A DNA stretch of 48,818 nucleotides from Myxococcales bacterium. GTDB lineage: Bacteria; Myxococcota_A; Polyangia; GCA-2747355. Where the stretch lies: NCBI GenBank assembly GCA_020431405.1, contig JAGQIK010000413.1:1-48818 (forward strand), given 5' to 3'. Both the position numbers and the translations under genes were made by a program. This document shows positions 34,461-48,818 of the stretch, piece after piece (position 1 is the stretch's first letter; every line of letters starts with the position of its first letter). The notes under the pieces were generated by a model. That model ran no database searches. It was not told the DNA's origin and was given only the letters and a program-made list of their open reading frames with translations.

Positions 34461-36107
34461 CTAGTTGTCGTCCTGTACGAGCTGACAGAGCGCGCGCAGC
34501 TGCGCCGCGTCGCACGGGCTGTGCAGCGTGGCGCACGCGCCGCGCGATAGCAGCGTCGCGGCCCACTGGCCTTCGCCGTCGCCGGTGAGCAACGCGATGG
34601 GCGTGGCCGGGTAGCGCTCGCGCGCGCGCACGAGCGTCATCTCGGCCTCGGCGATCGGGGTCGACTCGTCGACCACCAGCAGGCTGACGCGACCCTCCTC
34701 GTCGGCGTGGGCCAGCACCTCGAGCACCTCGACGCCGGCGGCCGCGTGCACCAGGCGAAAGCCAGCGCCGCGCACGGCGCGCGCGTTCTGGCCGTGCACG
34801 CCGCCGCGCGGGTCGAGCAGCACCAGCGTGCGCACGGGCGCTGCCTGGAGGTCTGGCGGCGTGAGCGACGCCGGCGATACGAGGCCCACGCGCGTGGCGC
34901 GCCGGGCGCGGCCGTGATGGCTGGGCGCCGGCAGCAGCAGCGTGAAGCGCGTGCCGCGTCCCGGCTCGCTGTCGACCTGCACGTGGCCGCCGTGGTCGCG
35001 CACCAGGTTGTAGACCGTCGAGAGGCCGAGTCCGGGGCTGCTGTCCTGCTTGGTCGAGTACATCGGCTCGAAGATGCGGCGCCGCGTCTCGGCGTCCATG
35101 CCGCAGCCGTTGTCCTCGACCACCAGCGAGATGTAGCGCCCGGGCTCGACGAAGGGGCTCATCTCGTGTGCGTGGCTGAGGCGCATCTCCTGCGCCGAGA
35201 CGCGCAGCTCGAGCGCGCGGCCGTCGTCGTCGGCCATCAACAGCGCGTCGCGCGCGTTGAGCGCGAGGTGCGTGAGGATCTGGTCGAGCGCGAGCGGGTC
35301 GGCGAGCACGCGCATGCCGGCCGGCACGCGGTTGAGCGGCACGATCACGCCGTCGAACGAGGCCGAGAGCAGAGACAGCACCTTGTGTACGGCGTCGGCG
35401 AGATCGACGGCGCGCGTCTCGGGAGCGCGGCGGCGCGCGATCTCGAGCAGCCGGCGCGTGAGCTCGTTGCCGCGTTCGACGGCGCGGCCGATGTCGCGCA
35501 GGCTTTCGAGCGTGTCTTCGTCTACCGGCAGCTCCTCGAGCGTCTCGCTGAGGTAGGTCACGTTGCCCTGCACCGCGGCGAGCAGGTTGCCGAAGTCGTG
35601 TGCGATGCCGCCGGCCATCTGGCCGAGGGCCTCGAGCTTTTGCAGCTGCTGCAGCTGCTCGTCGATGTGGTCGTAGTGCGTGAAGACCAGCACGTGCTGC
35701 GTGCCGATGTGAATGCGATCGCCGAAGCGCAGCGCGCGCGCCTGCACTGGCAGGCCGTTGACGCGCGTGCCGTTCTTGCTCGAGAGGTCCTCGAGCATGA
35801 AGTGTCCGGGGTGCGGCTGCGTGATGCGGGCGTGGGCACGGGAGATCTCTTCGCGCTCGATGCGCAGGTCGGCGTCGAGGCCGCGGCCGATGACGATCGG
35901 GTCGCTGCCGATGCGGTGCACGCGGCTCTGGCCGTCCGCGCTGAGCACCACCAGCTGCGCGTGCTCGACGGCGGCCTCGTCGAAGGGCGGATCGAGCGTC
36001 GTGACGCTGTCGCCGAAGCGCTCGAAGCGCTCGCCATCGGCGTGCCGACCCTCGAGCGCCACGTCGATCGCGAAGCGGTCGCGTCGCGCTGATCGCTCGC
36101 TGTTCAC
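34461..36107 (-). CDS. Hybrid sensor histidine kinase: FHA - HisKA/HATPase - receiver
   Basis: A 548-residue soluble protein. The FHA domain (about residues 50-145) has IGRG, SRAH and the SSKNGTRVNG loop for phosphothreonine binding. The kinase has the H-box GGIAHDFGNLLAAVQGN (His about 170), N-box LALNARDAL, G1 DNGCGMD and G2 GLGLSTV. The C-terminal receiver-like domain contains LVVDEST at the phospho-acceptor strand. No membrane helix. The FHA domain replaces a usual sensor, so input may come from a Ser/Thr kinase, a common myxobacterial wiring. The GTG at 36107 is a tentative start; a TTG at 36149 is also in frame. Confidence 0.9.
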   Translation of the reverse strand: MNSERSARRDRFAIDVALEGRHADGERFERFGDSVTTLDPPFDEAAVEHAQLVVLSADGQSRVHRIGSDPIVIGRGLDADLRIEREEISRAHARITQPHPGHFMLEDLSSKNGTRVNGLPVQARALRFGDRIHIGTQHVLVFTHYDHIDEQLQQLQKLEALGQMAGGIAHDFGNLLAAVQGNVTYLSETLEELPVDEDTLESLRDIGRAVERGNELTRRLLEIARRRAPETRAVDLADAVHKVLSLLSASFDGVIVPLNRVPAGMRVLADPLALDQILTHLALNARDALLMADDDGRALELRVSAQEMRLSHAHEMSPFVEPGRYISLVVEDNGCGMDAETRRRIFEPMYSTKQDSSPGLGLSTVYNLVRDHGGHVQVDSEPGRGTRFTLLLPAPSHHGRARRATRVGLVSPASLTPPDLQAAPVRTLVLLDPRGGVHGQNARAVRGAGFRLVHAAAGVEVLEVLAHADEEGRVSLLVVDESTPIAEAEMTLVRARERYPATPIALLTGDGEGQWAATLLSRGACATLHSPCDAAQLRALCQLVQDDN

Positions 36108-36272
36108 AAGCGATCCATCGGCGGTTTTGCCTCCGCATGCAGGGTTCAAGGGCGCTGCAAATGTGTCTCGCGCACGCTCGCATAGTGCAGTGAATCCGAT
36201 GATTTGCCTGTATTTCCTCGCCTTTCACGTCCTCGCCACCGAGCTGACACATCGCGCCATCAGATCACAGGC

Positions 36273-37432: not shown

Positions 37433-38824
37433 ATGACCGCCTCGTCCTCCAATGTGCCCTCGCGCGTGCGCTGCTACTGCGTCGACACCACCGACGCGCG
37501 GCGCGGCGACCAGGGGCTCTCGTGGATCGAGCTCGACCGCGAGGCGCGGCGTGTCAGCTTCATCGGCCCCAACAACCGCGAGATCGAGACCCACGACACC
37601 GCGGCGGCTGCCAGCGCCGCCTTCGACGCGCTGGTGGCGCGCCAGCGAGAGCGGGGCTGGGCGGTGGTCGACGACGAGGTGGCGGCGCACGAAGCGCTCA
37701 GCGCGCGCGAGCCCGAGCTCGAGCAAGCGATCCGCGACGCGCCCGACGACGACCAGCTGCGCGAGGTCTACGCCGACTGGCTGCAGCAGCAGGGCGACGT
37801 GCGCGGCGAGCTGATGGCGCTGCAGATCGCGCGCGGTCAGGCGCGCCGCGGAAACCCCGAGCAGTCGCTGGGGCTGGCCGAGCGCGCGCTGCTGTCGCGT
37901 CACGGCGGCCATCTGCTCGGCGACGTCGCCTGGTCGGAGCGGCTCTCGGAGGTCGAGCTCTCGTGGGCGCGCGGCTTCGTCATCGAAGCGGCGCTGCGGC
38001 TCGCCGTACACGACCCCAAGGCCGTCGCCCACCTGTTGCGCGCGCTGTTCGCGCTGCCGGTGTGCATGCTGCTCGAGCGCGTCAGCGTGTCATCGGATCG
38101 CGACAGCGCCGCGTTCTTCGACGGGCTGCGCGGCGCGCGGCTGCCCGAGAGCGTCGAGAGCCTGCGCGTCGGCGATGGCCGCGACGTCACCGAGCGCAGC
38201 GGGCACGTCGACGCCTCGGAGGTTTGGCATCAGCTGACCGCGCTGCAGCGGCTGAGCGTTAGCTGCGGCGACTTCGTGGTGCCCGAAGGCGCTGGGCTTT
38301 CGCGGCTGCGCGAGCTTTCGGTGCGTGCGCGGCGGCTGGGGTCAGGGGCGATGGCGCGTCTTTCGCGGCTGAGCATGCCCGCGCTCGAGCTGCTCGAGCT
38401 GCGCTGCGGCACCGCGGCCTACGACCCGTTCTGGCGCCGTCGCTATCGCGCGTACTACTGGGACTACTACGGCGACGACGACATCGATCGCCCCGGCCTC
38501 GCTGCCGACGAGATCGTGCAGCTGCTCTTCGCGCGCGGCTACGGCGCGCTGCGGCGCCTCGAGCTGAGCGAGCTGTCGTGTGGCGACGATCTGGCAGAGC
38601 GGCTGGCGGGCGCGCCGCTGCTGGCGCAGCTCGAGGTGCTGGTGCTGCGCGACGTGGCGATGACCGACGAGGGGGCGCGGCGCATCGCCGAAAACCGCGA
38701 CGCGTTCGAGCATCTCTATGCGCTTCACCTCGAGCGCAACGTGATCGGCCGGCGCGGCGAGCGCATGCTGCGGCGCGCGCTGGGCGACCGCGCGATCGTC
38801 GGCTTGCAGCGGGAGCAGGGTTAG
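37433..38824 (+). CDS. TIGR02996 repeat-companion protein with N-terminal WGR-like domain
   Basis: A 463-residue protein. Residues about 10-75 look like a WGR domain (SWIELDREARRVSFIG, then a helix with FDALVARQRERGW). The TIGR02996 domain follows (about 95-130, AIRDAPDDDQLREVYADWLQQQGDVRGELMALQ, in part). The rest has irregular leucine-rich-like repeats (LRELSVRARRL, LRRLELSELSCGDDL, YALHLERNVI). Proteins of this type are abundant in myxobacteria and planctomycetes and are thought to mediate protein contacts; function is unknown. A -10-like TATGCT lies about 45 bp before the ATG. Confidence 0.82.
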   Translation: MTASSSNVPSRVRCYCVDTTDARRGDQGLSWIELDREARRVSFIGPNNREIETHDTAAAASAAFDALVARQRERGWAVVDDEVAAHEALSAREPELEQAIRDAPDDDQLREVYADWLQQQGDVRGELMALQIARGQARRGNPEQSLGLAERALLSRHGGHLLGDVAWSERLSEVELSWARGFVIEAALRLAVHDPKAVAHLLRALFALPVCMLLERVSVSSDRDSAAFFDGLRGARLPESVESLRVGDGRDVTERSGHVDASEVWHQLTALQRLSVSCGDFVVPEGAGLSRLRELSVRARRLGSGAMARLSRLSMPALELLELRCGTAAYDPFWRRRYRAYYWDYYGDDDIDRPGLAADEIVQLLFARGYGALRRLELSELSCGDDLAERLAGAPLLAQLEVLVLRDVAMTDEGARRIAENRDAFEHLYALHLERNVIGRRGERMLRRALGDRAIVGLQREQG

Positions 38825-39086: not shown

Positions 39087-40175
39087 ATGAGCACTCCCGA
39101 CGACAACGTCGAGCCGGCGCGTGACGCCGCGCTCGAGGCCGCCATCGTTGCGGCGCCTGCCGCCCTCGAGCCGACGCGCGTCTACTGCGACTGGCTGTGC
39201 GAGCGCGGAGACGTGCGCGGCGAGCTGATGGCCATCCAGCTGCAGCGCGAGCTGTGTCGCGACGCGCGCGAGGAGCGGCGGCTGGCTGTCGAGCAGCGCG
39301 AGCTGATCGAGCGCCACTACCTCGATCTGTTCGGGCGGGTGGCCTCCTCGGGCCAGCTGCGCAAGGTGCGTCTGGTGTGGCGGCGCGGGCTCGTGCGCGC
39401 GGCCGAGCTGTGGCTCGAGACCGGCGATGGGTTCGACGAGGCGGAGCGTATGTTGGCGGCCGTGCAGCAGCTTCCGAGCGCGATCGTGCTCGAGCGGGTG
39501 TTGCTCTCGGTCGCCGATACCTTCGGCGCGTTCAGCGGCGCCATCGGGCGGGTCGGGCTATCGCCGTGCGTGCGCGAGCTGGTCTTCGACAGCAACCGCT
39601 ATCGCGAGGGCGAAGTCTGCTGGGAGCTGATGCAGCCGGGCATCCAGCACGTCGAGCGGCTCGACCTCTGCTGCGAGCGCGTCACCCTGCCCGACAAGCC
39701 GCGGCTCTTGCAGGCGCGCTCGTTGTCGCTGCGGCTGGGCAGCATCAGCTGCGGCGAGCTCGAGACGCTCGGCAGGCTCGAGGCACCCGAGCTCGTGTCG
39801 CTTTCGCTGGCCGTCACCGAGTATCACGGCGGCCGCGGCTGGCTCGGCACGCTCTACGCGCCGCTCGGCCGCGAGGTCGTGCCGCTGTTGCGCCCAGCCG
39901 GCACGCCGGCGCTGCGCGAGCTGGAGCTTCGCCGGCTGCGTCGCGGTGACGAGGTGATCGAGGCGCTGGTCGGCGAGCCGTGGCCAGCGCTCGAGCAGCT
40001 CGGGCTGGTCAGTTGCCGCGTCACCGACCAAGGGGTCGCGCTGCTGTGCAAGCACGCGGCGACCCTCGGCAACATCGCGCGCCTCGACCTGAGGCGCAAC
40101 GCGATCACGGCCGGCGGCCGGCTGGCGCTGCGTCGCGCGTTTGGCGAACGGGTGCTGCTCGGCGGCAACCCTTGA
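39087..40175 (+). CDS. TIGR02996 repeat-companion protein
   Basis: A 362-residue paralogue of the preceding gene without the WGR-like part. The TIGR02996 domain is at about residues 15-50 (AAPAALEPTRVYCDWLCERGDVRGELMAIQ, in part). Leucine-rich-like segments follow (VRLVWRRGLVRAAEL, LRELELRRLRRGDEV, LEQLGLVSCRVTDQGVALL, IARLDLRRNAI). No signal peptide. Both paralogues precede the FtsH-like operon on the same strand, but with 66 bp between this stop and the next start it may be a separate unit. Confidence 0.82.
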   Translation: MSTPDDNVEPARDAALEAAIVAAPAALEPTRVYCDWLCERGDVRGELMAIQLQRELCRDAREERRLAVEQRELIERHYLDLFGRVASSGQLRKVRLVWRRGLVRAAELWLETGDGFDEAERMLAAVQQLPSAIVLERVLLSVADTFGAFSGAIGRVGLSPCVRELVFDSNRYREGEVCWELMQPGIQHVERLDLCCERVTLPDKPRLLQARSLSLRLGSISCGELETLGRLEAPELVSLSLAVTEYHGGRGWLGTLYAPLGREVVPLLRPAGTPALRELELRRLRRGDEVIEALVGEPWPALEQLGLVSCRVTDQGVALLCKHAATLGNIARLDLRRNAITAGGRLALRRAFGERVLLGGNP

Positions 40176-40241: not shown

Positions 40242-40883
40242 ATGAGCGCCATCGAGACGAAAAAAGACCGGCCGCGGCTGCGTGTGGCCCAGCTCGTTCG
40301 CGACACCGACGCGGAGGGGCCCGGGCGCCGCTTCGCTCTGTGGGTCCAGGGGTGCACCCTGCGCTGCGCGGGCTGCTGCAATCCCGAGATGTTCGGCGAG
40401 CGCGGCGGCGAGCTGCGCGAGGTCGCCGAGCTCGTCGGGCTGGTGGCGTCGACGCCGCACATCGAAGGCCTCTCGCTGCTCGGCGGCGAGCCGCTGCAGC
40501 AGCCGGCCGGCGCCGCGGCGCTGCTCGCCGGCGTGCGCGCGCGCGGCCTGAGCACGATGGTCTACTCGGGCTACACGCTGGCCGAGATCGAGGCGCAGGC
40601 CGAGCGCGACGCGGCGGTGCGCGCGCTGCTCGAGGCCACCGACCTTCTGGTCGACGGGCGCTACGACGAGACGCAGCCCGAGCCGACGCGCCGCTGGATC
40701 GGCTCGCGCAACCAGCAGATGCACTTCCTCAGCGATCGATACGCGCCCGACGACCCGCGCTTCGTCGCCGACAACCAGGTCGAGATCCGCTTCGAGAACG
40801 GCCAGCTGCTCGTCAACGGCTGGCCGGCGGCGGCCGATGCGCTGCGCGACGCGCTGCGCGCGGGGCAGAGGAACAACCGATGA
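40242..40883 (+). CDS. Radical-SAM, NrdG-like activase-type protein
   Basis: A 213-residue protein with the [4Fe-4S]-binding CTLRCAGC motif (C-x3-C-x2-C) in LWVQGCTLRCAGCCNPEM. Also present are the SAM-binding LLGGEPLQQP and the later LLVDGRYDE typical of anaerobic ribonucleotide reductase activase and related short radical-SAM proteins. No glycyl-radical enzyme is encoded nearby. Instead it is the first gene of the AAA+/M41 operon, which suggests an activating or modifying role in that system (inference). The stop overlaps the next start by ATGA. A -10-like TATGGT lies about 14 bp before the ATG. Confidence 0.85.
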   Translation: MSAIETKKDRPRLRVAQLVRDTDAEGPGRRFALWVQGCTLRCAGCCNPEMFGERGGELREVAELVGLVASTPHIEGLSLLGGEPLQQPAGAAALLAGVRARGLSTMVYSGYTLAEIEAQAERDAAVRALLEATDLLVDGRYDETQPEPTRRWIGSRNQQMHFLSDRYAPDDPRFVADNQVEIRFENGQLLVNGWPAAADALRDALRAGQRNNR

Positions 40884-41974
40884 AGCGCGTCGCCGCGAGC
40901 GAGCATCGCGTGCTGAGCGTGGCGCGCGCGCTGGTCGGGCAGATCGGCGCCGACGCCATCGAGCCCGTGCTGCGTTCGAGCTACGCCATGCCGCCCAAGC
41001 TCGGCTCCACGGCGATGGCGCTGCTCGAGCAGACGCTGCGTGCCGGCGTGGTGCTCGCGCTCTGCCGGCGTGGCGGCTGGCGGCGCGTCGAGCACGCCGA
41101 CGCCGAGGGCGAGGTGCGCCGCGGGCGAATGTGGCAGCGCCACGGACCGCCGGCGCTGCGCTTCTCGCCGATGTCGGTGCAGCTCTGCCGCTGGCTGGCG
41201 GGCGAGGCGTTGGTGACCTCCGGTGCGACGCTGTCGTGGCGCGGAAAGCCGACGCTCGGCGATCAGCTGCTGCTCTATCTGGCCTGCGACCTCACGCTCG
41301 CCTGCGACGTCTCGCGGCGCGTCGCGGTCTCGCCAGCCTTTCGGCGCTCGCCGCTGTGCTGGCTCGGCTTTCCCGACGTGCTCTCCGCGGGCGAGGCCCC
41401 CGAGGCGCGCGAGCTCGACGCGTCGTCGTTCGATCCGTTCGTCGCCGGCGGCGACGGTGTCGTCGTGCTCGAGGCGCTGCAAGACGATCTCGTGGCGCGC
41501 TGGACGCGCATCGAGCGCCTAAAAGGGCGTGTTCGCAAGCCGTCGGCGCTGATCGCGCTCGGCGAGAGTCAGCGACGCGTGCTCGATCTGCTGATGGATT
41601 CGGCAGAGCGCTACGGGCGGCGCGACATCTGCGCCTTCGTCATCGAAGCCAGCGCGGCGCTGATGCGCGGCCCGCGCGACCCAGCGCAGTGGATCGGCAA
41701 CTTGACCCGCGCCGCGTCGCTGTCAGAACGCCAGCGCGCGCGCGAGGCGGCCGGCGCGCTGCTCGCCGGGCTCGAGCGGGTCAGCAGCTGGGTCGAGGGC
41801 GCGCGCGGCACACGCTTCTTTGACGATGACTACGCGCTGTCGCAGCTTCTGCTGCGGCGCTTCGAGCCGCTCGGCCCGGAGGGGCTTTCGCGCGCGCGCG
41901 CGCTGCGCTCGCAGCTCAGCGCGCTCGATGCCGACGCGGCAGATGTTTCGGCGCCCGAGCAGGCGCCGTCGTGA
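40880..41974 (+). CDS. Unknown protein of the FtsH-like operon
   Basis: A 364-residue protein. ATG overlapping the radical-SAM stop (ATGA), with AGAGGAA upstream. It is Arg/Leu-rich and helical with no signal peptide, and has blocks that look conserved: SYAMPPKLGSTAMALLEQTLRAG, WRGKPTLGDQLLLYLACDL and RSPLCWLGFPDVLS. I recognise no known domain. Its place inside the operon suggests one of the partner ('X') domains predicted for FtsH ternary systems, but this rests on context only. Confidence 0.75.
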   Translation: MKRVAASEHRVLSVARALVGQIGADAIEPVLRSSYAMPPKLGSTAMALLEQTLRAGVVLALCRRGGWRRVEHADAEGEVRRGRMWQRHGPPALRFSPMSVQLCRWLAGEALVTSGATLSWRGKPTLGDQLLLYLACDLTLACDVSRRVAVSPAFRRSPLCWLGFPDVLSAGEAPEARELDASSFDPFVAGGDGVVVLEALQDDLVARWTRIERLKGRVRKPSALIALGESQRRVLDLLMDSAERYGRRDICAFVIEASAALMRGPRDPAQWIGNLTRAASLSERQRAREAAGALLAGLERVSSWVEGARGTRFFDDDYALSQLLLRRFEPLGPEGLSRARALRSQLSALDADAADVSAPEQAPS

Positions 41975-42014
41975 GCAGTACCGGCCCGCAGTCGGGTCGC
42001 CACAGGAGGAACCG

Positions 42015-42578
42015 ATGAGTCGCGCCTATCGAATCGCCGTCTCCGAGACGCTGAGACGACACGTCAAGGTCGAAGACGGCGTGCAGACGCAGCTCGAGCT
42101 TCTTCACGTGCTCGCCGCCGAGCGCATGCGCGAGATCCTCGCCGCCGAGCTGGCCGAGCTCGGCTTCGAGCGCGACGGGCAGGTCTGCCGGCGCGTCGAC
42201 GAGGACGGCGTGGAGGTGACCGTCGACCTCGACGCCGGCACGGTCACCGTCAAGCTCGCCGCCGAGGAGGAGCTCGACATGACCGCGCGCGAGTCGGCAG
42301 CCTCGACACGCGCCGCCAACCCCGAGCTCGAAGAGCAGCTGCGCCAGCGCGCGCAAGAGCGGCTCGAGCGGCGCGCCGACGCCCGCACCGAGCGCATGCG
42401 CGAAGAGGTGACGGCGACGCTCGAAAAGAAGCTGCGCGATCTGCGCGCCGAGCTCGACGGCGCCGTCAACCGCGCCACCGGCGCGGCGCTCAAGGAAAAG
42501 GCCGCCGAGCTGGGCGAGATCGAAGAGATCACCGAGGACGACGAGACGGGATCGCTCACCATCCGCGTGCGCGTGTAA
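42015..42578 (+). CDS. Coiled-coil protein of the FtsH-like operon
   Basis: A 187-residue protein with a strong AGGAGGAA site. The N-terminal half is a small alpha/beta domain (LHVLAAERMREILAAELAELGFERDG, then EVTVDLDAGTVTVKL), loosely like the DUF1257/Ycf35 arrangement. A charged coiled coil (about residues 100-165) and an acidic C-terminal strand (EEITEDDETGSLTIRVRV) follow. DUF1257- and DUF2997-like genes accompany AAA+ genes in cyanobacteria and planctomycetes (recalled, not searched). Likely an adaptor or substrate of the protease. Confidence 0.75.
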   Translation: MSRAYRIAVSETLRRHVKVEDGVQTQLELLHVLAAERMREILAAELAELGFERDGQVCRRVDEDGVEVTVDLDAGTVTVKLAAEEELDMTARESAASTRAANPELEEQLRQRAQERLERRADARTERMREEVTATLEKKLRDLRAELDGAVNRATGAALKEKAAELGEIEEITEDDETGSLTIRVRV

Positions 42579-42596
42579 TACGCACCCAGAGATACC

Positions 42597-44756
42597 ATGA
42601 AGCTGCGTGAAGAAGACCTGCCGGTCGAGCTGTCGCCGTTCGAGGCGGTGGAGGCCGCGTATCCGAAGGAGCTGACGTCAGCGCAGGAGAGCCTGCGGCG
42701 CTCGCTGCCGGTGATGATCGAGTGCGACAAGGAGCTGACGCCCTTCTTCTATAAGTGCCTGCGCGACCGGCTCAAGAAGGACGAGCTGCGCTGCATCTAC
42801 CTCGACGGGCGCGTCGAGGTGCAGGGCGGCATGCCGCAGAGCATCGTCTCGACGATGATCGGACAGCTGCGCGAGGCGGTGCGCGGCGCGGTGGACCGGC
42901 GCGTGGTCGTGCTGCCGCACCTCGATCTGATGACCACCTCCAGCGGCGCGCTGACCAGCGAGGCGCGCGAGGTCATCTCGCTGCTCTACGAGAACCCGCA
43001 GCTTTTGTGGGTTGGCTTCAAGGATCCGTCGTTCGTGGTGCCGAAGGTCATCGAGCGGCTCTTCGCGCGGCGCGAGAGCATCATCGGCATCCCGCGCGAT
43101 CGGCTGCGCTACCTCGTCACGCAGCGCGAGTCGCGCAAGTTCGGCAAGCGCCTCAACCCCTATCAGCTCTACAAGTACGTCTCGGGCGTCAACGCCGTGA
43201 GGCTGCGGCGGCTGCTCGAGTCGGTGCAGGCCGAGGACTATGCCGAGGACCCCTCGCGCGCCTACGACCAGCTGCGCCAGGCCACGGTGGCTGGCGACGT
43301 CTCGATCCCCGACATCGATCTCGACGACGACATCGGCGGCTACGACAAGGTCAAGCGGCGCCTCAAGCAGGAGATCATCTCGCTGCTCGCGCGCAAGGAC
43401 GGCCTCGAGGACGCCGCGTCGGTGCAGCGCATCGAGTCGCTGCTGCCGCGCGGCATGATCTTCTGGGGCCCGCCCGGCACCGGCAAGACGCTGTTCGCCA
43501 AGGCGATGGCCACCTCGTTGGGCGCCGCCGTGGTGGTCGTCAGCGGCCCCGAGCTGAAGAGCCGCTGGGTCGGCGAGAGCGAGGAGCGCATCCGGCAGGT
43601 CTTCGTGCGCGCGCGCCAGAGCGCGCCGTCGATCATCATCTTCGACGAGCTCGACTCGTTCGCCACCGCGCGTGGCACGTATACCGGCTCGGGCGTCGAG
43701 CACTCGATGGTCAACCAGCTGCTCACCGAGATGGATGGCTTTCGCCTCAACGAGCTCGTCTTCGTCGTCGGCACGACCAACTTCGCCGAGTCGCTCGACC
43801 CGGCGCTGCTGCGTCCGGGGCGCTTCGAGTTTCATCTACAGGTGCCCTATCCGGCAGCCGACGACCGGCGCGCGATCTTCGAGATCTACGACCGCAAGCT
43901 CTCTTTGCAGCTCAGCGCGCGCGCGCTCGACTACGCGGTCAAGCGCACGGCGGACCTCGTCGAGGGCACCGACACGCGCTACTCGGGCGATCACATCCAG
44001 GCGCTTTGCCGCGCCGTGGCGCGCCGCCGCGTGCGCGACGAAGTCAACGCGCCCACCGAGGTCGACGACATCGAGCGCGCGCTCACCGAGTATCTCGAGC
44101 GGCCCGAGCTGACCGCGGCCGAAGAGCGCGTCGTCGCGACCCACGAGGCGGGCCACGCCGTCTGCGCGCTGTACTGCCCGACGGCGCCGCCCATCGATCG
44201 CATCTCGATCCGTGGCGATCTCGCCGGCGCGCTCGGCTTCGTCAGCTACTCCGATCCCGCGCATCGCTACGTCACCACGCAGGCGGCGCTGCGCGACTCG
44301 ATCTGCACCCTCTACGGCGGCCGCGAGGCCGAGTCGCTGCTGCTCGACGACGTTTCTATCGGCGCGATGGGCGACCTGCAGCGCGCCACCGGCATCGCGC
44401 GCGGTCTCGTCGAGCAGTTCGGCTTCGGGCCGGACTCGCTGGGCCTGCGCATCTTCGAGCAGGACAAGGAGCGCCCGGGCTTTTCCGAGGACGCGCGGCG
44501 CAAGCTCGAGGAGGCGGTGCGCGCCGTGCTCGACGTCGAGCAGGCGCGCGCGCGCCAGATCCTCGCCGAGCACCAAAAGGAGCTCGAGGTCTTGCGCGAT
44601 CTGCTGCTCGAGCACAAGGTGCTCGACGCGACGGCGCTGGCCGAGATCGGCATCAAGAAGAAGCGCGGCGACGACAAGACCGGCGCGCCGAAGAAGCGCG
44701 CCGCCAAGGCGGCCGCCACCACCACCAAGGCCGCGAAGGACCCAAGCGATGGCTGA
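42597..44756 (+). CDS. FtsH-like AAA+ protease: degenerate AAA - AAA+ - M41 peptidase, soluble
   Basis: A 719-residue protein. Residues 1-210 resemble a degenerate AAA domain (RRVVVLPHLDLM in the Walker B place, no Walker A), as in Ycf46-type proteins. The active AAA+ domain has Walker A GPPGTGKT (about 291-298), Walker B IIIFDE (346-351) and the arginine-finger region RPGRFEFHLQ. The M41 zinc peptidase has HEAGH (516-520) and the third ligand Asp in GAMGDLQRAT (about 593), with normal FtsH spacing. Unlike FtsH it has no N-terminal membrane helices. A Lys/Ala-rich tail ends the protein. It should unfold and degrade selected proteins; the flanking genes probably supply its regulators or substrates. 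Confidence 0.93.
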   Translation: MKLREEDLPVELSPFEAVEAAYPKELTSAQESLRRSLPVMIECDKELTPFFYKCLRDRLKKDELRCIYLDGRVEVQGGMPQSIVSTMIGQLREAVRGAVDRRVVVLPHLDLMTTSSGALTSEAREVISLLYENPQLLWVGFKDPSFVVPKVIERLFARRESIIGIPRDRLRYLVTQRESRKFGKRLNPYQLYKYVSGVNAVRLRRLLESVQAEDYAEDPSRAYDQLRQATVAGDVSIPDIDLDDDIGGYDKVKRRLKQEIISLLARKDGLEDAASVQRIESLLPRGMIFWGPPGTGKTLFAKAMATSLGAAVVVVSGPELKSRWVGESEERIRQVFVRARQSAPSIIIFDELDSFATARGTYTGSGVEHSMVNQLLTEMDGFRLNELVFVVGTTNFAESLDPALLRPGRFEFHLQVPYPAADDRRAIFEIYDRKLSLQLSARALDYAVKRTADLVEGTDTRYSGDHIQALCRAVARRRVRDEVNAPTEVDDIERALTEYLERPELTAAEERVVATHEAGHAVCALYCPTAPPIDRISIRGDLAGALGFVSYSDPAHRYVTTQAALRDSICTLYGGREAESLLLDDVSIGAMGDLQRATGIARGLVEQFGFGPDSLGLRIFEQDKERPGFSEDARRKLEEAVRAVLDVEQARARQILAEHQKELEVLRDLLLEHKVLDATALAEIGIKKKRGDDKTGAPKKRAAKAAATTTKAAKDPSDG

Positions 44757-45018
44757 GCTGACGATTAGACTGCGCGTTGATCCACAGACGGGCAAAAAGG
44801 ACGTGATCATCAGCTACGAGGCCGACGACGACGCCATGCCGCTCGAGCACGAGGACGAGCACAAATCGCTCGTCGACCGCCTCATCGAAGGCGGCGCGCT
44901 CAAGGCCGCCGAGGTGGGCAAGATCATCGTCGAGCGCGAGAGCCGCAAGGGCGAAGCCGCTGCGCTCCCCGTCGGCGAGACCGGCGAACAGCGCGAGTCC
45001 GAAGAACAAGGACAATAG
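44749..45018 (+). CDS. Small acidic protein of the FtsH-like operon (DUF2997-like size and place)
   Basis: An 89-residue protein. The ATG overlaps the protease gene by 8 bp. A short beta-hairpin (ELTIRLRVDPQTGKKDVIISYEAD) is followed by PLEHEDEHKSLVDRLIEGG and a charged, probably disordered C-terminus. DUF2997 proteins have a similar hairpin and companion AAA+ gene, but the match is not strong enough to name it. Very tight coupling implies fixed stoichiometry with the protease. Confidence 0.75.
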   Translation: MAELTIRLRVDPQTGKKDVIISYEADDDAMPLEHEDEHKSLVDRLIEGGALKAAEVGKIIVERESRKGEAAALPVGETGEQRESEEQGQ

Positions 45019-45104
45019 GGTCACTCTATGACTCGCAAGTCCCCGACATCGTTGGCCGCACAGCCCACAATGACAAAACCCGACGACGGGTGGGATCGAT
45101 AGAC

Positions 45105-48100
45105 ATGGCCGTGCTCGTCTTTCCGGGCGCCGCGGCGCTCGAGGCCTGTCTTCGCGGCGAGCTGGTGCCGCAGGAGATCCAGCGCGCGCCGGCGCGCTTT
45201 CGCGAGGGCGACGACGGCGAGATCGTCGTCGAGGTCAGCGGCATCGACCGCAAGCGTCGCGCCGAGCTGAAGAAGCTCGGCGTGGGCAGCGCGCGCGCGC
45301 TGGGGCGCACCCCCGACGTCAACGAGGTCAGCTGCTGGGCCGAGATCTTGCGCCCCGTGTTCGTCGGCGACGAGGCGCTCGACTCGGCGGTGGCGCTGTT
45401 TTGGCTCGAGCGTCAGGAGGACCTCGTCGCGCTGGCGGGCGAGCTGTTGCGCCTCGGCTGCGACCGCCAAGAGCTCTGCGCGCTGCCCGACGAGTTGATC
45501 GCGCAGGGCGGCCCTGCGGCGCTGGTGCGCGCGGTGGACCCGCCGTTCTACACGCTGGTGCGCGCGCTCGACCGGCCGGGTGGCTTGCGCGCGTTCGTGC
45601 CGGCGCCCGCCGGCCAGGAGCAGATCTTCGTCGAGGCAGGCTATCGCCACCCGCTGGTCGAGCACGTGCAGCGCGGCAGCGCGCCGCTGCTCTTGATCAC
45701 CGCCGAGGGACATTTTGTCCCGCTCGAGGAGCTTTCGTTTCAAGGGCTCTATCAGCTGATCGACGTCGCCCCGCCGCGCGGCGACGCGCGCCACGCGCCG
45801 CTGCCGCCGCCGCCGCGCGTGCAGGTCACGCTCACGCTGGTGCCGCGCGCGCGCGAGGCGCTGCCCACGCTGTGGGTCATTCGCGAGCGCGCTATCGAAT
45901 CCGTCGAGCGTCTCATCGAGCGCCTGCCCGAAGCCGAGCTGTCGAAGCTGCTCTTCGCGGCCACATCGTCAGCGGGCGGCGACAGCGGCGAGCCCACGGT
46001 GCTGCTTCGCGTGCGCCCCGGCCGCGGCTCGCCGCCGGTGCTCGATCTGCCCGGCGAGGCCTTCGCGCCGTGGCTCGAGATCGACAACCTCTACCTGCCG
46101 TCCGACGCGATCCTCGAGCCGCCCCTGCGCCGCGAGACGCTGCGCAATCTGCTCGCCGAGCGCTCCGACGAGGTCTGCTGGCTCACGCCGCTCGACGCCG
46201 AGCCCAGCGCCGGCGGCAACGGCGCGGGCAACGGCGCGGCCGCCACCGCGGCTGCCGGCGTACGCCCACCCGAGCGCGCGCGGCCGTTCCAGCTCGAGCG
46301 CGCGCCGGAGAGCGCCTTCGCGCCGCTTTCGCACTGGGTGCAGTACGTGGTGCACTCCAGCGCAGAAGCGCTCGAGCCGTGGGTTCGCTCGTCGACGTTC
46401 GACTTCGAGGCCTTCGAGTCCACCGGGCTCGAGTGGAGCGACAGCCCACCGCAAGAGGAGCGCGAGCCGCGCAGCACGCGCAAGCGCCGCCGCCGCCGCG
46501 ACGACATCGACGACGAGCCCAGCGGCGAGCGCGCCAGCGAAGCGCTGCCAGACTACGAGATCGAAGACGACGAGATCGACGACGAGCCGGAGCCGATGCT
46601 CGAAGCGCCGCCGCCGGTGGTGGTCGAAGAGGGCGCAGAAGCCCAGCTGCTCTCGCAGCTCGAGGCGCGCTATCTCGAGCTCGAGGCGCCAGCCGATGAT
46701 CCCGAGCGCACGCGCCTGTGGGCCGAGATGGGCGAGCTCAACGCGCGTCTCGAGCGCGAGCGGCAGTCGCGCCTGTGCTTCGCGCGCGCCGTGTGGGAGC
46801 TCGACGGCGACGCGGCCAACACCGTGGTGGCGCGTTGGGCCGCCTCGATGGGCGTCGAAGGAGACGATGTCGCCGCCTCCATCGGTGACGGCGCCGACGC
46901 CGAGGCTGGCCTGGTGGTGCTCGGCGTGCTCGGGCCGGCGCTCGCCCAAGCCGACGGCGCGCTGCTGCAGCGCGTGCAGCTGTGGCTCGACGAGAAGGAC
47001 GGCTCGCTCGACGTGCGCACCATCTGGCTCGCGCGCGTGGCCCTCTCGCGCGCCGTCGGTGGCGATCGACTGCAGCTTCTGCGCGCGCGCGATCGCATCG
47101 TCGCGCGCCTGTCGCGCGGCCTCTCGCTCGCGCGCGACGTGCCCACGTTCATGCGCTTCGCCGGCAGCAGCGGCGGCAGCGAGGGCGCCGCCCATCGCCA
47201 GCTCGTGCGGCGCCTGACGGCGTTTCTCGATCGCTTCCGCAAGACGCGCCGCTCGGTGCCCTTCAACGCCGGCGCCGACGCGCGCACAGACGCCTACGGG
47301 CTATTGCTGTTCGCCTACGGCTTCGCGCGGCTAGGCGAGGCCGAGCACGCGCGCGCTCTGCGCGAAGAAGCGCTCGGCGCCATCGACACCAGCGACCCGA
47401 TCCACGCCATCGCGGCGCCTGCCTACGCCGTGCGCGTCGACCACGCCCTCGAAGGGCTTCCGCTCGAGACCAAGCTGCCCGACGAGATCGAGGCGCGCCT
47501 CAACGAGCTGCCCAAGTTCAAGCGCTACACCATCGACCGCCTGCGCCACGCCTCGCAGGTGCTCGAGCCGCAGGAGCGGCTGCAGATCTACACCGGCTTT
47601 CTCGGCGACGCCGACGATCCGCGCGGCGCCGAGTTCGCTTCGCTGCGCGGCCTCGGCGACGCGGCGCAGCTTCGCGTGGCGGTCGACGAGGTGCTCGCGA
47701 TGGCCGAGGGCTTCGCCGACGAGCCGCAAGAGCGCGCGCGCCTGCTCGACGGCGTGATGGACTTCTTCCCGCTGCTCGCGGAAGCCGAGGCGGTCCCGCG
47801 CATCGAGCGCGTCGCCGCCGCGCTGGAGGGCATCGAAGCGCCGCGCCGCGCCGAGCTGCTCGACGAGGCGCTGATGCTCGCCGCGCTCTTCGGCCGCGCC
47901 GCGCTCGTCGAAGCGCTCGCCACGCGCTTGCAGGTGCTGTTCGCCGAGCTCGGCGAAGCGCACATCGAAGTGCTCGGGCGGCTGCTCGGCGGCGTGCTGC
48001 GCAGCCTGCGCCGCGCTGGCCTCGGCGAGCGCGCGGCCGAGCTGCTGACGGCCGCCGAGTCGGCGGTGCAAGGCGACGAAGGCCCCGCGCTGCAGGCGCG

Positions 48101-48500
48101 CCTCTCGCTCGGCACGGCGCTCGCCGATCTGGGCCGCTACGACGAGGCGCGCGCCATCGCCGGCGTCGCGCGCAAACGCCTCGCCGACGTGGTCGGCGCC
48201 AACAAAGGGCCACCGCTGCTCGAGACGCTCAATCTCGCACGCGGTCTCGCCGAGCTCTACGCCTGTCTGCCGCTCGACGAGGCCCTTGGCGGGCTCGAAG
48301 CGCTCAGCGAGCACCTCGGCTCGGTGAGCGACATCTACTCGTCGAACACGCACTTCTGCGTCTCGGTGCTCGAATTTGTAGAGTCGCTGGTGCTCGGCTA
48401 CGCCTCTGACCAGCTGTCGCTCGGCGAGGTCGGACGCCGCCTGCTCGACGAAGACGAGTACCTCGTGCGCCGCCGCGTACACCGCGACACACGCCTGTAG
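45105..48500 (+). CDS. Very large unknown protein of the FtsH-like operon
   Basis: An 1131-residue protein. The ATG at 45105 is chosen; a GTG at 45090 is also in frame. Residues about 1-230 form an alpha/beta domain (IVVEVSGIDRKRRAELKKLGVG, VSCWAEILRPVFVGDEALDSAV). A second region (about 240-440) is followed by an acidic, Arg-clustered linker (about 450-530, RKRRRRRDDIDDEPSGE). The C-terminal half is helical repeat-like (ELLTAAESAVQGDEG, RLSLGTALADLGRYDEARAIAGVARKRL), as in TPR solenoids. No membrane segment. It may be the scaffold or recognition subunit of the protease system; no known domain was recognised. Confidence 0.85.
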   Translation: MAVLVFPGAAALEACLRGELVPQEIQRAPARFREGDDGEIVVEVSGIDRKRRAELKKLGVGSARALGRTPDVNEVSCWAEILRPVFVGDEALDSAVALFWLERQEDLVALAGELLRLGCDRQELCALPDELIAQGGPAALVRAVDPPFYTLVRALDRPGGLRAFVPAPAGQEQIFVEAGYRHPLVEHVQRGSAPLLLITAEGHFVPLEELSFQGLYQLIDVAPPRGDARHAPLPPPPRVQVTLTLVPRAREALPTLWVIRERAIESVERLIERLPEAELSKLLFAATSSAGGDSGEPTVLLRVRPGRGSPPVLDLPGEAFAPWLEIDNLYLPSDAILEPPLRRETLRNLLAERSDEVCWLTPLDAEPSAGGNGAGNGAAATAAAGVRPPERARPFQLERAPESAFAPLSHWVQYVVHSSAEALEPWVRSSTFDFEAFESTGLEWSDSPPQEEREPRSTRKRRRRRDDIDDEPSGERASEALPDYEIEDDEIDDEPEPMLEAPPPVVVEEGAEAQLLSQLEARYLELEAPADDPERTRLWAEMGELNARLERERQSRLCFARAVWELDGDAANTVVARWAASMGVEGDDVAASIGDGADAEAGLVVLGVLGPALAQADGALLQRVQLWLDEKDGSLDVRTIWLARVALSRAVGGDRLQLLRARDRIVARLSRGLSLARDVPTFMRFAGSSGGSEGAAHRQLVRRLTAFLDRFRKTRRSVPFNAGADARTDAYGLLLFAYGFARLGEAEHARALREEALGAIDTSDPIHAIAAPAYAVRVDHALEGLPLETKLPDEIEARLNELPKFKRYTIDRLRHASQVLEPQERLQIYTGFLGDADDPRGAEFASLRGLGDAAQLRVAVDEVLAMAEGFADEPQERARLLDGVMDFFPLLAEAEAVPRIERVAAALEGIEAPRRAELLDEALMLAALFGRAALVEALATRLQVLFAELGEAHIEVLGRLLGGVLRSLRRAGLGERAAELLTAAESAVQGDEGPALQARLSLGTALADLGRYDEARAIAGVARKRLADVVGANKGPPLLETLNLARGLAELYACLPLDEALGGLEALSEHLGSVSDIYSSNTHFCVSVLEFVESLVLGYASDQLSLGEVGRRLLDEDEYLVRRRVHRDTRL

Positions 48501-48610
48501 CGCGGCGGCCGCAGCCGCGCGCGCACGCTCTGCCCAGCGAGTGGGCAGGGCTTGCTCACCTTCCGCCACGCGCCGCAGGATCTCGCGCACTTGAGTCGGG
48601 CACGCGCTGT

Positions 48611-48640
48611 GCTCCTGGCCACAAACCGTGGCCAAGGAGC
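48611..48640 (+). promoter_or_regulatory. Hairpin that masks the ribosome site of the last gene
   Basis: GCTCC-TGGCCAC pairs with GTGGCCA-(A)-GGAGC across the loop AAACC: a 12-bp stem with one bulged A. The 3' arm contains AAGGAG (48634-48639), the Shine-Dalgarno for the ATG at 48646. No T-run follows. This looks like translational control (thermometer-like or protein-gated) or a processing site, not a terminator. Confidence 0.6.
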
Positions 48641-48645
48641 ACTCG

Positions 48646-48818
48646 ATGACAGCGAACGATCGCTACTGTGTCGTCGACCTCGACGATGCCGCGCGGCTGT
48701 TTCGGCGCCTTTCGCGGCGCGCTCTCGGCGAGGGCACGCGCTTCGATCACCTCACCATCGCCGGCGGCGGCATGTCCATCGGGGGTCAGTCCGCGCACGC
48801 CGGGCGTAACGCCCACCG
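48646..48818 (+). CDS. Start of a further operon gene (3' truncated by window end)
   Basis: The ATG at 48646 follows AAGGAG at 6 nt. The visible 57 residues (TANDRYCVVDLDDAARLFRRL, then HLTIAGGGMSIGG) have no signal peptide and no recognised domain. The 145-bp gap from the previous gene holds the ribosome-site hairpin. It is on the same strand as the FtsH-like operon and probably belongs to it. Confidence 0.7.
   Translation, partial: MTANDRYCVVDLDDAARLFRRLSRRALGEGTRFDHLTIAGGGMSIGGQSAHAGRNAH

Follow-up and report, generated by a model that had tools for sequence, protein, structure and literature searches.

An FtsH ternary operon at the end of a contig

The window, a stretch of 48,818 nucleotides that is a complete contig (C194, with the assembly ending at position 48818) of a Myxococcota genome of 11.2 Mb in 733 contigs, contains an operon of six tightly packed + strand genes at 40242–48500, encoding proteins of 213, 364, 187, 719, 89 and 1131 amino acids (aa). 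The first (40242..40883) encodes a radical S-adenosylmethionine (radical-SAM) enzyme that resembles NrdG and the activase of pyruvate formate-lyase (PFL) and matches Pfam PF13353 (Fer4_12, 5.7e-30) and PF04055 (Radical_SAM, 7.2e-07). It is followed by fvmX6 (X6; 40880..41974; PF20004, 1.2e-66), fvmX5 with a coiled-coil-like middle (X5; 42015..42578; PF20003, 1.6e-52), a predicted soluble FtsH-type protease (42597..44756; PF00004 (AAA), 2.3e-41, and PF01434 (Peptidase_M41), 2.1e-33), the small, acidic fvmX3-analog (X3-analog; 44749..45018; PF20002, 5.2e-31) and fvmX7 (X7; 45105..48500; PF20005, the N-terminal fvmX7 domain, 6.6e-56). The coordinates bear out an initial annotation that had described six same-strand genes with overlapping junctions: an ATGA overlap (−4) joins the radical-SAM gene to X6 and an 8-bp overlap joins the protease to the X3-analog, while 40, 18 and 86 bp separate X6 from X5, X5 from the protease and the X3-analog from X7, respectively. 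The same annotation had listed the beginning of another gene, and a + strand open frame is indeed present at 48628–48816, but it is merely an unassigned fragment that runs off the contig end and has no Pfam or NCBIfam match.

The gene content had been likened to that of the FtsH ternary systems, and the Pfam models support this assignment. The proteins starting at 40880, 42015, 44749 and 45105, for which a domain search had been suggested, are fvmX6, fvmX5, fvmX3-analog and fvmX7; all four score above the curated cut-offs of models named after the FtsH ternary system, and none belongs to a housekeeping family. This class was predicted in 2020 as a combination of MoxR, a highly divergent vWA partner and an FtsH protein that has a pair of AAA+ domains, of which the N-terminal one is dead (PMC7159879, eLife 2020). 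Its simple subtype has a radical-SAM gene that stands alone and a vWA joined to a helical domain; the MoxR, vWA and FtsH genes usually share one neighbourhood, which is not strictly defining for the class (PMC7159879). The operon is almost certainly an FtsH ternary system, and the sequences and models suggest that it is the FtsH arm of an FtsH-vWA-MoxR (fvm) system of the simple subtype. Given curated family matches at E values of 1e-31 to 1e-66 and the same gene order in many genomes, the operon is not a chance assembly; the locus is a further member of a class known by prediction since 2020. No ubiquitin-like (Ubl)-E1-E2-E3-JAB conjugation genes, which mark the complex subtype, were found by Pfam among the operon genes, the rest of the genome not having been searched for them.

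Conservation across genomes and location of MoxR and vWA

Among 379 genomes of the phylum, X6 was found in 25, spread over 17 genera. X7 is present in all 25 of these, an ortholog of the radical-SAM enzyme in 24 and the vWA protein (ivWA) in 23, compared to ivWA in 12 of the 354 genomes that lack X6 (Fisher p ~6e-26, with relatedness ignored). The co-occurrence that the initial annotation had proposed to check is thus strongly conserved in other genomes. MoxR, vWA and FtsH lie in one neighbourhood in eight of the loci read, six of which show the full order radical-SAM enzyme-X6-X5-FtsH-X3-analog-X7-MoxR-ivWA; the order is kept in Myxococcus, Pyxidicoccus and Nannocystis and largely kept in Gemmataceae and other Planctomycetota. 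Complete operons occur in Myxococcus xanthus and in Pyxidicoccus and Nannocystis strains, so that culturable hosts exist. X6 lies directly downstream of the radical-SAM gene in 69 of the 80 best radical-SAM loci, and in some genomes the pair stands apart, with X7 and vWA elsewhere; radical-SAM enzyme and X6 form a separable yet essentially constant module, and the enzyme is a near-constant core part of the system rather than an accessory. Neither X6 nor the FtsH N-domain had a match among 72,556 plasmids, and the N-domain had none among 50,697 phages. The 12 genomes with ivWA and without X6 may hold the complex, Ubl-linked subtype.

In the source genome the system is split between two places, with MoxR and vWA outside the operon on a second contig, C65. 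There, the MoxR-type AAA+ gene (C65:2884–3462; bpMoxR family, 1.6e-59) adjoins ivWA (C65:1120–1668; family match 6.6e-34, helical N-domain 2.4e-11). A direct join of the window end to MoxR was ruled out by other, unrelated C65 genes upstream of MoxR, and the terminal bases of the window do not occur in 20 kb of C65. The DxSxS metal motif of vWA is absent in 8 of 9 members. The same genome contains, on contig C235 (873–1565 and 3116–3688), a weaker second fvmX7-like protein beside the best bpMoxR match (1.4e-77), probably a MoxR-vWA ternary system of the beta-propeller type.

A predicted soluble protease with one dead and one active AAA+ domain

The FtsH-type protein is composed of an N-terminal AAA+ domain without a P-loop (residues ~1–240), an active AAA+ domain (~280–490) and an M41 zinc protease domain (~505–683). 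The GxxxxGK[ST] P-loop is absent from residues 1–240 in 17/17 members, and the predicted structure of this domain (predicted local distance difference test (pLDDT) 83.7) has a classical AAA+ fold, with 145 Foldseek matches at E<=0.001 and a proteasomal ATPase as the best structural alignment (Z 12.9 over 204 residues, root-mean-square deviation 3.8). Kinship with the N-domain of Ycf46 was unsupported, though the fold is AAA+: profile comparison gave 1.4%, and 1 of 60 shuffles did as well. In the second AAA+ domain, Walker A and B, sensor and arginine finger are intact in all 17 members, as are the zinc ligands of the M41 domain (HExGH and a third Asp; HEAGH in the window protein). The pore loop reads KSRWVGESE. 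No membrane segment was predicted, the highest 19-residue hydropathy (1.64) falling within an AAA+ domain, and the protein scores 271.8 bits against the membrane FtsH family TIGR01241, below its cut-off of 600. The protease is therefore predicted to be both catalytically intact and soluble.

A radical-SAM enzyme that is not NrdG

The radical-SAM enzyme carries the cluster motif CTLRCAGCC together with LGGEP and GSxNQ; C38, C42, C45 and G81-G82-E83-P84 are invariant in 19 homologues. Its nearest named family is NrdG, against which it scores 93.9 bits, below the cut-off of 126.1, and its nearest solved structure is PFL-activating enzyme (8.7e-15). A radical-SAM gene had already been noted in the simple subtype (PMC7159879). 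Several observations bear on its identity. First, NrdD was found in none of the 25 X6-bearing genomes, so that the enzyme is not the activase of an anaerobic ribonucleotide reductase in these genomes. Second, a glycyl-radical domain of any kind occurs in just 5 of the 25, the source genome included. Third, in a tree containing several long-branch rows, the fvm enzymes group with Clp-linked and actinobacterial Ycf46-linked radical-SAM proteins on one branch (support 100/98), with NrdG outside. As judged from these comparisons, the enzyme is NrdG-like but not NrdG. In the source genome, which lacks NrdD, the glycyl-radical domain lies at C376:14360–14674 within a 1065-aa open frame.

The relatives on this branch stand beside other AAA+ ATPases. 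In actinobacterial plasmids, a Ycf46-like AAA gene, a 141-aa protein, DUF2997 and a helix-hairpin-helix or hypothetical protein precede the radical-SAM gene. In proteobacterial plasmids the order is a PIN-domain gene, a ~375-aa protein, a ClpB-like AAA_2 gene and then the radical-SAM gene; the cassette common to five of these loci also holds a large AAA-domain gene, and in two copies its ~375-aa gene shows weak similarity to DUF2997. The ClpB-like gene matches the PADLOC candidates PDC-M37B and DolB, and one cassette (L265) lies near the antirestriction gene ArdA. The Paenibacillus polymyxa plasmid pPPM1a (715–3582) carries an AAA-DUF1257-DUF2997-radical-SAM cluster, whose radical-SAM protein is more distant and falls outside the main clade in the tree. 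Our search found no literature tying Ycf46, DUF1257 or DUF2997 to a radical-SAM enzyme; in Synechocystis, a ferredoxin gene adjoins DUF2997 and DUF1257 (Ycf35) (PMC4284462).

The recurring pairing of radical-SAM enzyme and AAA+ protein is a fresh lead beyond the known class. It may indicate that a radical-SAM family derived from NrdG works quite generally with AAA+ unfoldases (of FtsH type in fvm, of Ycf46 type with DUF1257 and DUF2997, ClpB-like with PIN), modifying a small adaptor or substrate so that a radical-installed mark gates unfolding or proteolysis. We offer this generalization tentatively and consider it closer to doubtful than to probable; if biochemistry bears it out, the partnership would surprise specialists.

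Conserved features of the partner proteins

X6 is nearly all-helical in its AlphaFold2 model (mean pLDDT 92.5), for which Foldseek gave no match at E<=0.001 among PDB and viral structures and a VIA search gave a best Z of 5.6, below the informative level for helical proteins. In X5, Gly50, Ala163 and Gly167 are invariant in 66/66 homologues, which also share a hydrophobic C-terminal end, GxLTI[RK]V, with a near-invariant TI. The X3-analog has the motif P-x-E-H-E-x-x-H (P31, E33, H34, E35, H38), invariant in 48/48 homologues. The conserved residues of X5 and the X3-analog would be sensible places to seek a modification. The C-terminal region of X7 has weak TPR-like matches (TPR_10, 0.0064, under the cut-off).

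We also compared these proteins with those of the Ycf46-linked clusters. X5 aligned with the C-terminal end of DUF1257 better than any of 60 column shuffles, but with an hhalign probability of only 2%, and the X5 profile hidden Markov model matched a partner protein of the actinobacterial Ycf46 clusters at E 0.001 in a set of 38 proteins; kinship of X5 with DUF1257 is suggestive only. A relationship of the X3-analog to DUF2997 was unsupported, 26 of 60 shuffles being equally good.

A proposed mechanism and its alternatives

Having read composition, motif integrity, conservation and the clade and context of the radical-SAM enzyme directly, we inferred from them the interactions, modified residue and physiological output of the following model. 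The soluble FtsH protein, presumably hexameric, would stack a structural ring of dead AAA+ domains on the active ring with its protease chamber. X6 would hold the radical-SAM enzyme, which would alter one of the small partner proteins by radical chemistry, the first candidate being X5, with its invariant glycines and fixed C-terminal tail, and the second the X3-analog, with its invariant PxEHExxH. The FtsH ring would then engage the marked partner, which would serve as its adaptor or as its substrate, and MoxR-vWA would build up or take apart the complex on an X7 scaffold. Proteolysis would become conditional, or a peptide would be released, with an iron-sulfur/SAM enzyme as the gate.

This explanation is supported by the family matches, the dead N-terminal and intact second AAA+ domains and M41 site, the MoxR and ivWA genes of the source genome, the conserved gene order and co-occurrence, the lack of NrdD, the position of X6 downstream in 69 of 80 loci, the separable pair of radical-SAM enzyme and X6 and the clade that stands beside other AAA+ unfoldases. 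That the enzyme marks a small partner protein is plausible, though we would place it somewhat short of an even chance; the explanation as a whole, an FtsH arm with a partner marked by the radical-SAM enzyme, we regard as evenly balanced between right and wrong. Several points weigh against it. MoxR and vWA lie outside the operon in this genome; the radical-SAM substrate is a candidate only; no conserved glycyl-radical motif was recognised in the homologue comparisons of X5, the X3-analog or X6, the first two being the proposed partners; a glycyl-radical enzyme is encoded elsewhere in 5 of the 25 genomes, this one included; the role given to X6 is a guess, since it has no known fold relative; and no experimental study of the FtsH ternary class was found in the searched literature. 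The analysis reduces the question of the system's chemistry to a handful of candidate substrates, which mass spectrometry could test.

The strongest alternative is a biological-conflict system, anti-phage or for self/non-self recognition, in which sensing of an invader leads to MoxR-vWA remodelling and to release of an effector peptide by FtsH and the radical-SAM enzyme. Conflict was the function predicted for the MoxR-vWA class by the authors who described it, with a statistical link to multicellular bacteria (PMC7159879), and it is consistent with the patchy presence in 25 of 379 genomes and with the radical-SAM cousins on plasmids, which adjoin PIN-domain and AAA genes and in one case lie near an antirestriction gene. 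However, the gene set is nearly fixed, and the loci read showed neither effector domains that diversify nor toxin genes that vary; X6 and the FtsH N-domain are missing from the plasmids searched, and the N-domain from the phages; and no PADLOC model matched beyond general AAA and radical-SAM similarity. Since the genes hardly vary between loci, variable effectors are lacking and the plasmid and phage searches were negative as stated, a dedicated protein-processing role is at least as likely as conflict, which we consider possible but rather unlikely. Another alternative is a cofactor- or protein-maturation machine in which one specific client enzyme would depend on the radical-SAM enzyme and FtsH for its maturation or proof-reading. 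Here the precedent is NorQ/NorD, a MoxR-vWA pair that acts in iron insertion, and related couples that act on fumarate reductase and RuBisCO (PMC9976466), and the fixed composition and the iron-sulfur enzyme within the operon fit it; yet no gene for a client metalloenzyme is conserved in the loci and the vWA mostly lacks its metal motif, which makes this reading less likely still. That the radical-SAM enzyme is simply the NrdG activase of an anaerobic ribonucleotide reductase, or of another glycyl-radical enzyme, and a chance neighbour of the operon is very improbable: NrdG is its best named family and PFL-activating enzyme its closest structure, but the score falls under the NrdG cut-off, NrdD and, in most genomes, any Gly_radical domain are missing, and the enzyme occurs in 24 of 25 X6-bearing genomes, mostly next to X6, on a branch apart from NrdG.

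Genes upstream of the operon

Two adjacent paralogous genes of leucine-rich-repeat (LRR)-like/TIGR02996 type lie directly upstream on the + strand (37433–38824 and 39087–40175). They were ruled out as parts of the system, there being 42 TIGR02996 matches genome-wide and homologues near few loci, and the pair is probably a lineage expansion. Farther upstream, on the strand opposite to the operon, 34461–36149 (−) encodes an FHA domain fused to a histidine kinase (HisKA and HATPase) that may also have a degenerate receiver domain.

Comparison with known systems

The operon shares with the simple subtype of the FtsH ternary systems (PMC7159879) fvmX6, X5, X3-analog and X7, the FtsH protein with dead and active AAA+ domains, the radical-SAM gene, MoxR, and ivWA with its helical N-domain, and differs in that MoxR-ivWA is on a separate contig here; the NEFF1 effector was not seen, no search aimed at it having been made. 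The M41 protease domain, intact in all 17 members, is never named in the text of that paper (0 matches for 'M41'). Like the membrane FtsH protease, the window protein has AAA+ followed by M41 and the same zinc ligands; unlike it, it is predicted to be soluble and has an additional dead AAA+ domain and the pore loop noted above. The radical-SAM enzyme has the core and the CxxxCxxC and GGEP motifs of NrdG and PFL-activating enzyme, whereas it forms its own clade, is found nearly always with AAA+ genes in the loci read and, unlike the NrdG activase, occurs in genomes without NrdD. The Ycf46-DUF1257 (Ycf35)-DUF2997 triad lacks M41, X6, X7, MoxR and vWA, but it likewise combines an AAA+ ATPase with two small proteins, to which the plasmid clusters add a related radical-SAM enzyme; the P. 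polymyxa cluster would be a module parallel to the fvm operon. Through the radical-SAM clade, the FtsH ternary class is linked both with the Clp-like loci on plasmids and with the Ycf46-DUF2997 clusters.

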